A stretch of 64,000 nucleotides of DNA from contig OX638316.1 of NCBI GenBank assembly GCA_951812525.1, positions 186,001-250,000 of the forward strand. Direction: 5' to 3'. The notes under the pieces were generated by a model that saw only the letters and a list, made by a program, of their open reading frames with translations, did not search any database and was not told where the DNA came from. Positions 28,765 through 60,332 of the stretch are shown here, piece after piece; the first letter of the stretch is position 1; every line of letters starts with the position of its first letter. The position numbers were made by a program, and so were the translations under genes. This stretch comes from an uncultured Poribacteria bacterium (lineage in GTDB: Bacteria > Poribacteria > WGA-4E > WGA-3G).

Positions 28765-28770
28765 ATTTTA

Positions 28771-28806
28771 GTTGTCAGTTGTCAGTTGTCAGTTGTCAGT
28801 TAAGAG
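28771..28806. repeat. Four perfect GTTGTCA heptamers
   Basis: Bases 28771-28798 are four exact copies of GTTGTCA, followed by GTTAAGAG. A loosely inverted counterpart (TTAACTGAAAACCAATGACCGATAAC) lies at about 28831-28856. This is the cleanest copy of the dispersed heptamer family. It abuts the start of the DUF368 gene. Confidence 0.85.
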
Positions 28807-28864
28807 GTGCTTTGGTTCGTCCAATTCTATTTTAACTGAAAACCAATGACCGATAACTCATAAG

Positions 28865-28984
28865 TCAGGAACGACCGTGCTCCTTATCAGGGATAGTAGT
28901 CGGACGGACGCACATAAACACTGATAGAACCGTACAAGCAATAACACCTATCAGCAGTTCAGACTCCGTTTGTTTTGGATTCAT
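28865..28984 (-). CDS. Possible 39-residue membrane peptide
   Basis: The frame from the ATG at 28984 to TGA at 28865 encodes M-N-P-K-Q-T-E-S-E, then one hydrophobic helix (L-L-I-G-V-I-A-C-T-V-L-S-V-F-M-C-V) and a short polar tail. It lies just downstream of a consensus promoter, between it and the DUF368 gene. There is no good ribosome site close to the ATG (GAAGG is 20 bases upstream), so it may be a leader peptide or untranslated. An overlapping frame from an ATG about 25 bases further upstream reads M-K-V-C-L-L-L-P-A-Y-N-E, like the start of a glycosyltransferase, but stops after 18 codons. Confidence 0.3.
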   Translation of the reverse strand: MNPKQTESELLIGVIACTVLSVFMCVRPTTIPDKEHGRS

Positions 28985-29022
28985 TGTAAGCAGGTAGCAG
29001 CAAACACACCTTCATAGGGTAC

Positions 29023-29051
29023 ATTATACTACAAAAATGATTTTCTGTCAA
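29023..29051 (-). promoter_or_regulatory. Perfect consensus sigma70 promoter for the DUF368-nadK-recN run
   Basis: On the minus strand TTGACA (29051-29046), a 17-base spacer and TATAAT (29028-29023) match the consensus at every position. Transcription would start near 29016 and reach the DUF368 gene after about 250 bases. Confidence 0.8.
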
Positions 29052-29260
29052 ACGGTTATGTGTGGAATTGTGTGTTGTTTATTTTCCAATAATTGTTGTC
29101 TGAATCAGAATTTACAGGATTATAGGATTTGCAAGATTATGTTTCTGTTAAAATGTCACTATGAAATTCTGTCCTACTGCGGCTGTTTTTCTTCTACAGA
29201 CCCTATTCCTATCGGAGAAGAAAAAAATCACACTTAAGCAAGGATGTTAGAATAGATAAG

Positions 29261-29283
29261 TGCGGTTAGGAAACCGCATCTAC
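29261..29283 (+). repeat. Intergenic hairpin repeat
   Basis: TGCGGTT (29261-29267) and AACCGCA (29272-29278) form a 7-bp stem around AGGA, followed by TCTAC. It lies upstream of the nucleoside hydrolase gene. The rest of the 28985-29392 spacer holds only the promoter at 29023 and A/T-rich text without an open frame. Confidence 0.7.
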
Positions 29284-29328
29284 CGTGGTCGGATTGGGTA
29301 TCTCAATTCGGAGTGAGACAGAAATAAA

Positions 29329-29357
29329 TTCCCATTTTTCTGCCGATGTGATATACT
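29329..29357 (+). promoter_or_regulatory. Possible promoter of the nucleoside hydrolase gene
   Basis: TTCCCA (29329-29334) and TATACT (29352-29357) are 17 bases apart. The -35 matches four of six and the -10 five of six. The start codon follows 36 bases later. Confidence 0.4.
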
Positions 29358-29392
29358 GAGGAAAACTCACAATTCACAAGGTAAAATCGTTT

Positions 29393-41690: not shown

Positions 41691-41700
41691 CAGCGTTATC

Positions 41701-41790
41701 GGCGCGGTTAGGAATGCAGGTTGCATGAATCAACGGTATTCATGCCTTATGGCATGAACCGGGTCGAGTACGCCGCAAAACCGCGCCTAC
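41701..41790 (+). repeat. Hairpin repeat with a nested stem-loop insertion
   Basis: Arms GGCGCGGTT (41701-41709) and AACCGCGCC (41779-41787), then TAC, are those of the dispersed hairpin family. The loop is about 69 bases and contains a second hairpin, GCATGAAT (41723-41730) with ATTCATGC (41738-41745). Confidence 0.65.
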
Positions 41791-41918
41791 CGAGACGGAA
41801 CTTGGCTCCAACCTATATCCCCCGATGTGTCAATATATCTATAATTCCCATAGGAAGCGGCTCGGAATGCTAATGGCACCAGTGAAGTACGAGTAATTTT
41901 CGCATCGCGAGAAAAAAT

Positions 41919-41947
41919 TTGACTTCCTCTCATATTTATGGTATAAT
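41919..41947 (+). promoter_or_regulatory. Strong sigma70-type promoter upstream of a structured leader
   Basis: TTGACT (41919-41924), a 17-base spacer and TATAAT (41942-41947). Transcription would start near 41954. The next plus-strand gene begins about 440 bases later. Confidence 0.7.
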
Positions 41948-41953
41948 ATATGC

Positions 41954-42000
41954 CTGTTGGATAGGGAAGCAATTTTTGTTCCCAGCAAATGTCCTATCCG
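41954..42000 (+). ncRNA. Possible structured RNA leader or small RNA
   Basis: The first transcribed bases would fold: GGATAG near the 5' end pairs with CTATCC at about 41994-41999, and inside it GGAA-GCAA pairs with TTG-TTCC around a short T loop, leaving an 11-base bulge. No open frame follows at once. I do not recognise 6S RNA, tmRNA or a known riboswitch. The end of the transcript is not visible. Confidence 0.35.
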
Positions 42001-42103
42001 TCCACTTGTTTAGGCATTGAAGATACAGATAACCCCTTTAAGAGTTCCCTTCAAAAATCAACAGTAAGTTCCATAGCGCGCTATCTGCGGGCGCAAAACG
42101 TGC

Positions 42104-42337
42104 TTATTGTCGTCGTTCTTCAACATCAGCATCGAGTAGGTCCGAGATGTAGAGTTCACCTGCCTGAATAAGATCGCGGAAAAGATTCCTGGAGAACACA
42201 TCATCTTCAGGACAAGGCATCACTTCGCTAAAAAGCACTTTGTCATATCTATACCCTAAAAGAGATAAAATGTTTTCGGCCGGATTATTCAATCTTGACA
42301 GACCGGTCGTTAGCCGCGCCTTATTGATGCCAGAATT
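42104..42337 (-). pseudogene. Protein-like fragment without a start codon
   Basis: A 77-codon minus-strand frame lies between stops at 42338-42340 and 42104-42106. It reads I-N-K-A-R-L-T-T-G-L-S-R-L-N-N-P-A-E-N, then L-G-Y-R-Y-D-K-V-L-F-S-E-V and L-I-Q-A-G-E-L-Y-I-S-D-L-L-D-A-D-V-E-E-R-R-Q. The composition looks like a real cytoplasmic protein. The only starts are TTG or CTG, and no ribosome site is visible. It is probably the tail of a deleted gene, and is antisense to the transcript from 41954. Confidence 0.4.
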
Positions 42338-42395
42338 TTATCTCTTCATTTAATTGTAGAAGTATGTCAAATCAACAGACTTAAGAAGGAAAAAA

Positions 42396-54823: not shown

Positions 54824-56809
54824 GTGAAATTCTTGGCACAACTCACAAACTTCCAAAAATTTGCTATTAAAAATATAAAGTATTACGGACTTATCACTGT
54901 TATCTTGGTAGCGGGGGTGCAAATTGGATGTGTAGCTGGTAGCGGACTGCGCGCCGCAGAAAAACTCGTTGCGGAGAAAGACTATAACGGTGCGCTTGCG
55001 GCTTACCAAAGTATTGTAGACACCAAGCCCGGCACATTAGAAGCCAACCAAGCACAACTTGCTATAGGTGAATTGTTGGTTGAGCACATGAACCAACCGG
55101 CAGAAGGCGTCAAAGCCTACGAGGCGGTTATCGCTGCTGCACCGGAAAGCGATGAAGCAGCGGAAGCACACTACAATCTCGGTATGCACTATTATCGAGA
55201 AAAGGATTACAATACTGCCCAGACCCAATTTGACGCGATTGTTAACAAGTTTCCAAGCCTAGAATTGAGCCATAATGCGCAACTGATGTTAGCAAAAAGC
55301 TTTGAGGACGCGAATAACTTTGAACAGGCAGTAGAGATTTACGATAACTTCGCGAATCGTAATCCGAGAAGCGAACGGGCTGCGATAGCCATCGCTCGTA
55401 AAGGGCAGATCCAGAAAGACCATCTTAAAAACGAGGAAGAAGCGAAACGTACCTATCAATCACTCGTTAAAAGATATGGAAAGGTTGAAGGCACTGAAGA
55501 AGAAATTGAGAAAGCGAAGCAAGAACTAACAGCACTCAAAGCCAGTATCCCTGAGCCAGACGATCCATTAGCAACACAATATGGGAGAGCCTTAGCACAG
55601 CAAGAAGCGACCCGTGAACGGGACCGCCCGCGCGGTGGCGTTGAGAGAAGTCGTGCGATGGGCAATGTTGATCTTCAAGTTGCAGATTCCGGATTCGGGA
55701 TTAGTGCCCCAGAAGTTATGCGAAATTTCGGCGGACAGGGTGGTATAGCAGGTGATGAACAGGGCAGTTACTTCGACGCAGAACTCATGATTGCAAGTTT
55801 CTTCTACGGAGATGAGAACTACCGTGACGCAGGTGCTTTATACTTCGATGCGGTTGCCCGTGCCGAATCTGCGGGTGTAAAAATCGACCCGTACGCTTAC
55901 CTCCGTCTCTCTATCTGTTATCGTAAAGTTGGGATGCACCAACGGGCGCGAGAAGTGCTCAAACAGGCAACAAGGAAAGATGGTAGCGTTATCGAAGCAG
56001 TTATCGATACCGGACGCAATCAGTATACCTCCGAATCGTATGAAAAAGCGTTGGAAACTTACAATTCCGTTATTGGGATGGCGCGTGGCAAGGATTCGGA
56101 GATTTACTGGCTAATGGCACTGGTCCACAAAAAATTAGGTGAACCTGAAAAGGAACGTGAGGCACTCGAACGCGCCGTTGCTGCGAATACACAGAATGTT
56201 GATGCGTTGCAAAGCCTCGCCGAAGTGCTTCACTACCGGTTGAAGGATCGGAAAGCCGCGGCGATATTTCAGGATCTTGTCGATCAGAAAGGCGATTCGT
56301 ACATCGGATCCAAAACTATCGGCGACCTAACTTACAAGTACGGAAACTACGTCCAATCGCGTGCCAAGTATAGAGCTGCCGCTCGTACAGCAAAACGGTT
56401 GCTCGGCAAATCGGAAAATGATGCTGAAAAACGCGAACTCCGCAATCAGATAGTCTATGCCACTATTCTCGCTGCACGTGCGACCCATCATCTGAAGAAG
56501 GCAGAAGATGCGCAAAAGATGATTGATGAATTGGCTGCGGAGTATCCCGAACACGCCTTGATACCTTATGGTAGAGCTGAATTGGCACTCCTCAACGGCG
56601 ACACAGAAACTGCAGTTGCTGAATTCAAAGCGTCAATTGAGAAAAACCCGGTCTCTGACATTGCCTTGATAGCACTTGGGGAGTACTATGTTTCACAAGG
56701 CTATAATGACGATGCGATTGCTCTTTGGGAGGGTTATTTGACCAATAACCAGTATAACCAGAACGTTCGGCGTCGTCTTAAAAAGTTGACAGGTGATGGC
56801 GAAAAATAG
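54824..56809 (+). CDS. TPR-repeat lipoprotein
   Basis: A 661-residue protein starting at GTG 54824 with AAGGAGA. A signal ends V-Q-I-G-C (Cys36), a possible though imperfect lipobox. Residues about 45-230 and 320-655 are tetratricopeptide repeats (for example A-A-E-A-H-Y-N-L-G-M-H-Y-Y and A-L-A-L-L-N-G-D). A glycine-rich, probably flexible stretch separates the two arrays (about 265-310). It resembles periplasmic scaffold proteins of the YbgF/BamD kind in its front half. Partners unknown. Confidence 0.82.
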   Translation: MKFLAQLTNFQKFAIKNIKYYGLITVILVAGVQIGCVAGSGLRAAEKLVAEKDYNGALAAYQSIVDTKPGTLEANQAQLAIGELLVEHMNQPAEGVKAYEAVIAAAPESDEAAEAHYNLGMHYYREKDYNTAQTQFDAIVNKFPSLELSHNAQLMLAKSFEDANNFEQAVEIYDNFANRNPRSERAAIAIARKGQIQKDHLKNEEEAKRTYQSLVKRYGKVEGTEEEIEKAKQELTALKASIPEPDDPLATQYGRALAQQEATRERDRPRGGVERSRAMGNVDLQVADSGFGISAPEVMRNFGGQGGIAGDEQGSYFDAELMIASFFYGDENYRDAGALYFDAVARAESAGVKIDPYAYLRLSICYRKVGMHQRAREVLKQATRKDGSVIEAVIDTGRNQYTSESYEKALETYNSVIGMARGKDSEIYWLMALVHKKLGEPEKEREALERAVAANTQNVDALQSLAEVLHYRLKDRKAAAIFQDLVDQKGDSYIGSKTIGDLTYKYGNYVQSRAKYRAAARTAKRLLGKSENDAEKRELRNQIVYATILAARATHHLKKAEDAQKMIDELAAEYPEHALIPYGRAELALLNGDTETAVAEFKASIEKNPVSDIALIALGEYYVSQGYNDDAIALWEGYLTNNQYNQNVRRRLKKLTGDGEK

Positions 56810-56814
56810 ATTTA

Positions 56815-56839
56815 GGCGCGGTTTTTCAACCGCGCTTAC
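56815..56839 (+). repeat. Intergenic hairpin repeat
   Basis: GGCGCGGTT (56815-56823) pairs with AACCGCGCT (56828-56836, one G-T wobble) around TTTC, followed by TAC. It is the only structure between the TPR gene and the rho promoter. Confidence 0.7.
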
Positions 56840-56881: not shown

Positions 56882-56910
56882 TTGACCTTTTTTCGTTAAT
56901 TAGGTATAAT
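56882..56910 (+). promoter_or_regulatory. Strong promoter of the rho gene
   Basis: TTGACC (56882-56887), a 17-base spacer and TATAAT (56905-56910). The start would be near 56917, leaving a leader of about 550 bases before rho. Confidence 0.75.
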
Positions 56911-56916
56911 TACAAT

Positions 56917-57466
56917 TAAGATTCTTAACTTCCTACAGCGCGAGCACGCTTTAAAGACTCAATAAGTGGCATTTTTAGGTAGAAGCTACCTTCTCGCATG
57001 CATTGTGACAGCCATACAAGTAACATTTCCACGGGCAACACTGCACCTACTCCATCGATACCCTGTATACCCTGCATTTTGTTCCGTCGTACATTTCAAC
57101 GGTAATTTCTCATGCACCAAGTTGGGGTGTCACACTGGTTTACCTACTTTGTGGGACCCTGTTTTTCGTGCGTCAGTCCTATACTGTTCTACTATAGACA
57201 GTATAAGGAAACTCGGTAGATGCGGTTTTCAGCTGCACACCGAAAGCGATAGAAACCAATTTCAGTAAATTATTCTATAGAATCAGCCCTGATTCCATTT
57301 TTAACCTCTTCTTTATATCCCAATTTAGCGATAGTTTTCAAATTGCAATGACTTTTTGCGAACACGGCGCATGTAAGAGGGAGCGAAGAATACGCTAGGT
57401 TGTTAGATGAATACCAGAGCGGAACGATTACTTTGGAATCGGGCACAATGAGGAGTATTAGAAATT
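56917..57466 (+). promoter_or_regulatory. Long rho leader with C-rich, G-poor stretch
   Basis: No convincing gene lies between the promoter and rho. A hand count of 57001-57120 gives 37 C and 17 G, the skew expected of a Rho utilisation region. A degenerate reversed copy of the hairpin repeat (GTAGATGCGGTTTTCAGCTGCAC) lies near 57216-57238. A 100-codon frame at 56966-57268 has no ribosome site and an unlikely composition. By analogy with E. coli, where Rho terminates in its own leader, this may be an autoregulatory region. Confidence 0.5.
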
Positions 57467-58798
57467 ATGGAGAGCTTGGACATTGGCAAGCTCCAAGAAA
57501 TGGAGTTCTCAGAACTCAAAGACTTCGCACTGACACTCGGGATGAAGGAATACACCGGGTCTCGGAAAGAGGAATTGATTAACGAAATCATAGAGGCAAA
57601 ATCTGACGGGGAGATTCAATTTTACGGTGGCGGTGTACTGGAAATCTTAGATGACCGGGATCAGCGCTACGGGTTTCTCCGTTCACCGCGTTCTAATTAT
57701 CTGCAGAGCAATGAGGATATCTACGTATCTTCATCACAAATCCGAAGATTCGATTTGCAGACGGGCCATGTCGTTGAAGGTGTGATTCGTCCGCCGAAGA
57801 AGACGGAAAACAAAGCAGAACGCTATTTTGCCATGCTACAGATCGAGAAGGTCAACGGCGAAAAACCAGAAGCCGTAAAACAGAAAATCCTTTTCGATAA
57901 CCTCACTCCCATCTACCCGTACGAACAATTGCAACTGGAACACAATGAGGCAGAATTCGCGACCCGTATGATGGATTTGATGTCACCAATTGGCAAGGGA
58001 CAGCGTGGACTGATTGTCGCGCCCCCTTACAGTGGCAAGACCACATTGCTGAAGAATATTGCTGCTGGTATTGAATCGAATCATCCTGAAGTCTCCCTCA
58101 TCTTTCTCCTGATTGACGAACGTCCGGAAGAAGTCACAGATGTCGCACGCTCTGTCAAAGGAGAGGTAATCAGCTCAACCTTCGATGAGTACCCAGAACG
58201 ACACATCCAAGTCGCTGAAATGGCGGTTGATAAAGCCAAGCGGTGGGCTGAGTACGGAAAAGATGTTGTCATTTTATTAGACAGTCTGACCCGACTGGCG
58301 CGAGCGTACAACTTAACGGCACCACATAGTGGCAAAACGTTGACGGGTGGCTTAGATGCAATGGCACTTGTGAAACCACGTCAGTTCTGCGGTGCGGCGC
58401 GGAAGTTTGAAGAAGGTGGGAGTCTTACAATTATAGCATCGGTACTCATAGGCACCGAAAGCCGTGGAGACGAAGCTATTTATGAAGAATTTAAAGGCAC
58501 GGCGAACATGGAAATCCATTTGGAACGCTCCCTATTAGATCGCCGGATTTTCCCATCGATTAACCTCGAAAAGTCAAAGACGCGTCGTGAAGAACTCTTG
58601 TTAGCACCAGATGTACTTAATAAGGTCTGGGTGCTACGGAAATTCACAAGCCAGATGGACAGCGCGGAATCACTCGAAATGCTTGTTGAACAATTTGGTA
58701 AAACCACGACCAACGAGGAGTTTCTCGAACGGATGGTCGATAATGCCGGTTACAGCAGCAGTGTCCCCGCGAGAAACAACGCTCGTCTGAAAAGGTAA
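57467..58798 (+). CDS. rho: Transcription termination factor Rho
   Basis: A 443-residue protein. The N-terminal helical part is followed by the cold-shock-like RNA-binding domain (G-V-L-E-I-L-D-D-R-D-Q-R-Y-G-F-L-R-S). The ATPase domain has a P-loop P-Y-S-G-K-T-T-L-L (usually K-A-G-K-T), Walker B V-V-I-L-L-D-S-L-T-R and L-T-G-G-L-D-A. Length is normal, with no large insertion. The start codon at 57467 follows AGGAG at a slightly long spacing. It heads the rho-rpmE-prfA-prmC group. Confidence 0.95.
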   Translation: MESLDIGKLQEMEFSELKDFALTLGMKEYTGSRKEELINEIIEAKSDGEIQFYGGGVLEILDDRDQRYGFLRSPRSNYLQSNEDIYVSSSQIRRFDLQTGHVVEGVIRPPKKTENKAERYFAMLQIEKVNGEKPEAVKQKILFDNLTPIYPYEQLQLEHNEAEFATRMMDLMSPIGKGQRGLIVAPPYSGKTTLLKNIAAGIESNHPEVSLIFLLIDERPEEVTDVARSVKGEVISSTFDEYPERHIQVAEMAVDKAKRWAEYGKDVVILLDSLTRLARAYNLTAPHSGKTLTGGLDAMALVKPRQFCGAARKFEEGGSLTIIASVLIGTESRGDEAIYEEFKGTANMEIHLERSLLDRRIFPSINLEKSKTRREELLLAPDVLNKVWVLRKFTSQMDSAESLEMLVEQFGKTTTNEEFLERMVDNAGYSSSVPARNNARLKR

Positions 58799-58916: not shown

Positions 58917-59132
58917 ATGAAACCCGAAATCCACCCCGAAATGGTAGAATGCGTGATCACATGCGTCTGCGGCGCAACCCATAAAACGCTCGCGATCCAA
59001 CCAACAATGCGAGTAGATATTTGTGGCAAATGTCATCCATTCTACACCGGGCAGCAGGCCCGCTTTATTGATACTGCTGGACGCGTTGAAAGCTTCCGCC
59101 GACGCTACGGGCTGACCGAAGACGATAAGTAG
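58917..59132 (+). CDS. rpmE: Ribosomal protein L31, zinc-binding type
   Basis: A 71-residue protein. Both zinc pairs are present (C-V-C-G near residue 17 and C-G-K-C-H-P-F-Y-T-G near 36), so this is the C+ form. The C-terminal F-R-R-R-Y-G-L is typical. AAGGAAGG precedes ATG 58917. It follows rho, a very common pairing. Confidence 0.95.
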   Translation: MKPEIHPEMVECVITCVCGATHKTLAIQPTMRVDICGKCHPFYTGQQARFIDTAGRVESFRRRYGLTEDDK

Positions 59133-59264: not shown

Positions 59265-60332
59265 ATGTTTGAAAAACTCAAGGATATCGAAACTAAATAT
59301 ACCGAAGTTGAAAGAGCACTTGGAGATCCAGTACAGATCTCAAATCAGCAACGGTTAATGGAGTTATCCAAAACACATGCTGAACTTTCCCCTATCGTGT
59401 CTACATATCACGAGTATCAGCAGTTAGAATCTGCCCTCGAAGAGACCCTTCTCATGATAGAATCAGAAACGGACGCTGAGATAGTGGGGTTAGCGCAAGA
59501 GGAATTGGAAAGCCTTACGGCGCAAAAGGAAGAACTAACAGAAGAACTAAAGCTGCTCTTGATCCCGAAAGACCCAAACGATGAAAAGAATGTTATCATT
59601 GAGATTCGGGCAGGCACTGGTGGAGAAGAAGCCAGTCTCTTTGCAGCTGAGTTATTTCGAATGTACACCCGATACGCGGAGCGACAAAACTGGAAACTTG
59701 AAATCCTCAACTCAAATGCAACAGGGTTGAAAGGGTTGAAAGAGATTGTCTTTTCAATTGCAGGTGCGCGCGCGTATAGTCAATTGAAATACGAGGGTGG
59801 CATTCATCGTGTCCAAAGAATTCCAGCGACAGAAGCGAGCGGTCGTATCCATACCTCCGCCGCAACTGTAGCCGTCCTTCCCGAAGCAGAAGCACTTGAT
59901 CTGGCAATCGATGAAGCGACCGAATTGCGAATCGATACCTATCGTTCGTCAGGTCCGGGTGGTCAAAGCGTTAACACGACCGATTCTGCTATTCGAATTA
60001 CACACATTCCAACGGGACTGATTGTAACGTGTCAAGATGAGAAATCTCAACACAAAAACCGCTCCAAAGCGATGAAAATTCTCCGAGCCCGTCTCCAAGA
60101 GAAAAAGCAGTCTGAACTTAACAACGAAAGGGCAGAAACGCGTCGCTCAATGGTTGGAAGTGGTGACAGAAGTGAGAAGATTCGCACTTACAATTTCCCG
60201 CAGTCCCGTGTCACGGATCACCGAATTCAATTCAGCTCCTATCAATTAGACTCCATTTTAGATGGAGCTTTACAGGCATTTATCGATCAATTGACAACCG
60301 CCGACCAAGCAGAGAAGTTGAAAGAGGCTTAA
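59265..60332 (+). CDS. prfA: Peptide chain release factor 1
   Basis: A 355-residue protein. The stop-codon-reading P-A-T is present in R-I-P-A-T-E-A-S-G-R-I-H-T-S, which marks RF1 rather than RF2 (S-P-F). The catalytic G-G-Q is in S-S-G-P-G-G-Q-S-V-N. Length and domain order are normal. It would terminate at UAA and UAG. Followed 27 bases later by its methyltransferase. Confidence 0.96.
   Translation: MFEKLKDIETKYTEVERALGDPVQISNQQRLMELSKTHAELSPIVSTYHEYQQLESALEETLLMIESETDAEIVGLAQEELESLTAQKEELTEELKLLLIPKDPNDEKNVIIEIRAGTGGEEASLFAAELFRMYTRYAERQNWKLEILNSNATGLKGLKEIVFSIAGARAYSQLKYEGGIHRVQRIPATEASGRIHTSAATVAVLPEAEALDLAIDEATELRIDTYRSSGPGGQSVNTTDSAIRITHIPTGLIVTCQDEKSQHKNRSKAMKILRARLQEKKQSELNNERAETRRSMVGSGDRSEKIRTYNFPQSRVTDHRIQFSSYQLDSILDGALQAFIDQLTTADQAEKLKEA

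Follow-up and report, generated by a model that had tools for sequence, protein, structure and literature searches.

Introduction

That Rho terminates its own synthesis in Escherichia coli, as stated in the initial annotation of the locus described here, is well founded. For E. coli and Salmonella, it is established that rho is autoregulated by Rho-dependent attenuation (PMC12691595, PMC6582626, where Kung 1984, Barik 1985 and Matsumoto 1986 are cited for it); in Salmonella, the small RNA SraL belongs to this system. A rut site is a C-rich, G-poor and ribosome-free RNA segment of 60–80 nt or more (PMC6582626). In Bacillus subtilis, rho is autoregulated as well (Ingham 1999, as cited in PMC12350095), and candidate Rut sites have been mapped in its 5′ UTR and early coding sequence (PMC12350095).

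Rho autoregulation has so far been studied in few bacteria. Poribacteria are mostly known from sponges, and our literature search returned no paper that joins Poribacteria, Rho and transcription termination. For the window analyzed in this work, i.e., the whole stretch of 64,000 nt of DNA from an uncultured member of this phylum, it had been proposed that a rut-type autoregulatory leader of rho evolved in a distant phylum. This wording is fair, although such autoregulation is less surprising than implied, because B. subtilis already provides a case outside Proteobacteria (PMC12350095). From the proposal itself, a long regulatory leader emerged well supported, with conserved noncoding sequence, a conserved distant promoter and the same arrangement in four families of the order. 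Rut-type attenuation is our best explanation: we estimate a probability of roughly 60% that Rho-dependent attenuation of rho by its leader is the mechanism at work, which makes it the most likely one.

The rho locus compared with E. coli and B. subtilis

The features of the locus are compiled in Table 1. The rho start codon lies 556 nt past the −10 hexamer of a sigma-70-type promoter that matches 11 of 12 consensus positions and is the best of the region, in agreement with the strong promoter annotated about 550 bases before rho. Overall, the scan returned 6 promoter-like sites versus 5.4 ± 2.5 in shuffled sequences. It showed no second + strand site between this promoter and rho, including the close-lying promoter that, according to the initial annotation, would argue against a long leader. 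The TPR-repeat gene upstream of rho is syntenic throughout family f1, as seen by tblastn in relatives. Directly 3′ of it, at 56812–56838, we noted a palindromic repeat, GCGCGGTTTTTCAACCGCGC, which has partial copies elsewhere in the genome and may be the 3′ end of the TPR gene. A phage search with rho gave weak partial matches only.

Table 1. Features at the rho locus (window coordinates)
Feature	Position	Strand	Basis
TPR-repeat protein gene, upstream neighbor of rho	54824–56809	+	Pfam TPR families; tblastn in relatives
Sigma-70-type promoter of the rho leader, TTGACC-17-TATAAT	56882–56910	+	Promoter scan; genus-wide conservation; other families with promoters at similar distance
rho 5′ leader, about 550 nt	56917–57466	+	Start deduced from the −10 element; comparison with relatives
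C-rich, G-poor stretch, candidate rut region	57001–57120	+	C:G 37:17; C>G conserved in relatives
Core, consensus AAACATTCCCGCGGGCAACATTGCACCTACTCCATCGATACC; genera g1, g13, partly g11	57021–57062	+	Leader comparison between genera
Putative hairpin with internal loop	57214–57242	+	Alignment folding; weak covariation
Putative helix, 57249–57254 with 57273–57278	57249–57278	+	Pairing conserved without compensatory changes
Second C-rich, G-poor patch, C:G 15:5, includes hairpin 57280–57295	57268–57330	+	Base counts; relatives
Shine-Dalgarno AGGAG of rho	57451–57455	+	Inside strongly conserved leader 3′ end
rho, 443 aa; Rho_N, Rho_RNA_bind and ATPase domain	57467–58798	+	Domain search; alignment to E. 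coli Rho
rpmE, ribosomal protein L31, next gene 3′ of rho	58917–59132	+	Pfam
Peptide chain release factor 1-type protein, PCRF and RF-1 domains, after rpmE	59265–60332	+	Pfam

In E. coli as in the window, an untranslated leader in which C exceeds G is located between rho and its own promoter. The E. coli leader is about 255 nt long, whereas many Poribacteria have leaders of 550–790 nt. The best 80-nt C>G skew is 0.33 in E. coli versus 0.50 here, and since the proven E. coli leader scores lower, the leader in the window is at least as rut-like by local measures; over the whole leader, C:G is 1.43 in E. coli versus 1.10 here. E. coli features an annotated leader peptide, rhoL, and trxA upstream of rho, in contrast to the TPR protein gene and the lack of a conserved open reading frame in the window. 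Moreover, termination is proven in E. coli, whereas the Poribacteria leader is known from sequence comparison. With B. subtilis, the locus has in common a candidate Rut region in the 5′ UTR of a rho gene outside Proteobacteria, autoregulated in B. subtilis; there, however, Rut sites were mapped biochemically, and the likeness drawn here is one of description, not of aligned sequences.

Aligned over 416 residues, Rho of the window and E. coli Rho share 53% identity, and their RNA-binding residues are nearly the same: F64, R66, D78, Y80, E108 and Y110 are identical, and F62 is replaced by Y. With these residues of the primary RNA-binding site conserved, the Poribacteria protein would be expected to prefer YC-rich RNA.

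Conservation and coding status of the leader

We compared 22 rho loci of the genus and used the fourfold-degenerate sites of rho as a yardstick. Genus-wide identity is about 80% for the promoter block and mostly 72–85% for leader blocks, falling to 65–66% in the two parts that vary most. In the same pairs, fourfold-degenerate sites of rho are 45% identical, i.e., near saturation, and two control segments, the rho-rpmE spacer and a repeat upstream of the promoter, reach 55% and 51%, respectively. Two other long intergenic regions of the window (28765–29392 and 41691–42395) gave almost only dispersed repeat matches and hardly any syntenic conservation. The dispersed intergenic repeats, at 28769–28863, 29096–29141 and 41700–41793, have dozens of matches in related genomes. 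Judged by this yardstick, the leader is a cis-regulatory element maintained by purifying selection.

The conserved sequence does not encode a protein, as the initial annotation had held in finding no convincing gene between promoter and rho. Substitutions by codon position number 282/265/204 in 56990–57126 versus 780/249/169 at the start of rho, open reading frames crossing the C-rich stretch have a frame that differs from species to species, and none of the frames between promoter and rho has a Pfam match. We hence rejected a conserved upstream frame or leader peptide, because the sequence lacks codon-position bias and relatives have stops and frameshifts in it. The same holds for a 14-codon frame just 5′ of the ribosome site: in the alignment, judged by eye, its start is not conserved and stops interrupt it in several relatives. 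A mobile element or repeat was rejected as well, for the leader occurs once per genome throughout the genus: in its own genome, the block matches only its rho locus, apart from short stretches at the edges and around 57209–57238.

Leaders in the genus vary in length. Most congeners carry an extra ~130 nt with a second folded region near the leader 5′ end; the window's genome is without it, and its leader is about 130 nt shorter than in most of them. Insertions enlarge the leaders of L027 and L030 to 880 and 1137 nt, with the core spared. Three related congeners (L024, L025 and L029) show a clean deletion of 56990–57267 that includes the core, and the patch at 57268–57330 is retained.

Rho leaders across the order

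Distantly promoted rho leaders of 327–792 nt with C>G were found in four families of the order (f1, f2, f3 and f4), and leader lengths over the comparative set range from 164 to 1137 nt. The promoter-to-rho distance is 440–460 nt in genus g12, 410–590 nt in most of f4, 360–430 nt in f3 and about 825 nt in f2. Between these groups, leader sequences are mostly unrelated. Leaders of f2 and f4 (L070, L077–L083) have in common a 39-nt element near the 5′ end, TTCCCACC...GATTA(G)CTTCGT (82%), that differs from the conserved leader element of the window's genus. In one f4 locus (L068, genome G032), the promoter match was lost, apparently through insertion. By eye, a 390-codon frame occupies the expected promoter place about 440–1600 nt upstream of rho, its end resembles a TnpB-type zinc-ribbon protein, and the C-rich 3′ part is all that remains of the leader.

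Over nine lineages, mean (C−G)/length of the leaders is 0.036 versus 0.003 in 84 background regions (resampling p = 0.008), and local C>G measures give p = 0.04–0.05, values that are optimistic, given the partial dependence between lineages. C exceeds G in most of the groups; in family f3 and genus g4, the whole-leader C>G is close to zero. Along the leader, conservation and C>G skew are correlated, with Spearman coefficients of 0.51 in g1, 0.75 in g12 and 0.55 in f4; circular shifts score as high in fractions of 0.01, 0.00 and 0.11, respectively. Such a joint rise and fall is expected under selection on a Rho-loading segment. At the level of sequence, our comparisons thus demonstrate a rho leader that is conserved, noncoding, distantly promoted and C-rich.

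The conserved core and predicted folding of the leader

Pairwise leader comparison between genera identified a deepest conserved piece of 37–38 nt at 57021–57058. Between a g1 species and genus g13, it is identical at 37/38 nt (97%), with a second match around CCCTGCATTTTG. Genus g11, with leaders of just 164–173 nt, retains ACATTCCCGCAGGCACC..(T/C)GC. Shuffled leaders gave no cross-lineage matches. In g1, the core is found 45 to 692 nt past the leader start and usually about 405–480 nt before rho, with strand and order kept despite the variable promoter distance. Because this distance varies so widely, the core is likely read as RNA and not as a promoter-bound DNA site. Its near-identity over 37–38 nt goes beyond the sequence specificity required of a simple rut site, hinting at an additional or different function.

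The leader might then be a conserved, sequence-specific riboregulator that responds to an RNA-binding protein, a small RNA or a ligand, or that controls access to AGGAG, its C-richness being incidental. Letter-by-letter conservation of the core goes far past any composition constraint, and the leader 3′ end that contains the ribosome site (57441–57466) has a mean identity of 92% in the genus alignment. Alignment folding furthermore points to a structured stretch at 57133–57310, with z of about −3.9 to −2.7 against column shuffles, which comprises the helices of Table 1 and a small hairpin at 57280–57295. Covariation is weak, however, with changes on both sides in 4 pairs versus a shuffle average of 1.9, so that leader structure is only a suggestion and a strongly covarying structure was rejected. 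A long-range GGGC/GCCC pairing bracketing the block was also discarded; it is conserved in g1, but g13 has other bases at the partner positions. Rfam covariance models did not match at gathering thresholds, none was convincing below them, and no family covers the leader. In addition, C>G is retained in lineages with unrelated leader sequence, which counts against a riboregulator with incidental C-richness. We therefore regard a riboregulator of this kind as a serious but unlikely rival.

We may also speculate, with slightly less confidence, that the core, together with the folded stretch next to it, makes up a new Poribacteria switch in which a partner (protein, small RNA or ligand) gates Rho loading. 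A sequence-specific RNA switch stays in play because the core is conserved letter by letter beyond known rut needs. If this were true, a signal, rather than the Rho level alone, would set global termination capacity.

It is improbable that the conserved block forms a small RNA gene in its own right, with its own end and outside the rho mRNA. The strong promoter and the noncoding, partly structured sequence would suit such a gene, but between promoter and rho there is no good intrinsic terminator (a single weak candidate at 57143–57155), conservation extends to the rho ribosome site, and the scan shows no further promoter-like site before rho. DNA-level sites (operators) between promoter and gene are more improbable still: they might account for short conserved segments, but here hundreds of bases are conserved, and the core-promoter distance ranges from tens to hundreds of bases with strand and order kept.

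Base composition

Over 57001–57120, C had been noted to outnumber G about two to one, and our count gives a ratio of 2.18. C-skew by itself is ordinary for this genome and not beyond chance. Across 464 kb of this genome, an equal C-skew is seen in 3.7% of noncoding 120-nt windows, and such a window occurs in 11 of 28 intergenic regions of at least 500 nt. When 40 long intergenic regions that precede genes are ordered by skew, the rho leader comes 9th if the best 80-nt window is used and 12th if the whole length is. Nor is the C-rich stretch predicted to be more accessible, with an unpaired fraction of 0.47–0.49 versus a leader mean of 0.45. Both 57001–57120 and 57268–57330 are C-rich, G-poor segments in the size range described for rut sites (60–80 nt or more). 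We nevertheless rejected composition as insufficient proof of a rut site, since such skew is common in this genome and Rut and non-Rut sequences cannot be told apart reliably by any combination of sequence descriptors (PMC12350095). What sets the leader apart from chance is its conservation in relatives, not its composition. An ordinary long intergenic region with a chance C-skew is hence hardly credible: skew alone is common, but conservation of this noncoding leader far exceeds that of fourfold sites and control spacers.

Discussion

We favor Rho-dependent attenuation by a rut-type leader because conservation reaches deepest in the C-rich stretch, leaders that do not align still have C>G, conservation tracks skew, and the RNA-binding residues of Rho are conserved. 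We infer Rho loading, termination and feedback at the leader as follows. From its distant promoter, rho would be transcribed into an mRNA with an untranslated leader of about 550 nt. When Rho is plentiful, it would load on the untranslated C-rich, G-poor RNA, with the core at 57021–57062 inside the main stretch, and 57268–57330 possibly serves as an additional loading site. Loaded Rho would move 3′-ward and halt RNA polymerase ahead of rho or shortly after its start. With little Rho present, or with Rho engaged elsewhere, polymerase would read through and rho be expressed. The structured stretch at 57130–57300, 3′ of the main C-rich region, might pause polymerase or shape Rho access, a tentative role.

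The locus is a plausible addition to known Rho autoregulation in an unstudied phylum; the principle itself is not new. The natural leader variants, from 164 to 1137 nt and with or without the core, show which bases matter and may aid rut prediction. If confirmed, the finding would extend Rho autoregulation to a deep-branching, uncultured phylum and would suggest that feedback on the Rho level is a general bacterial feature.
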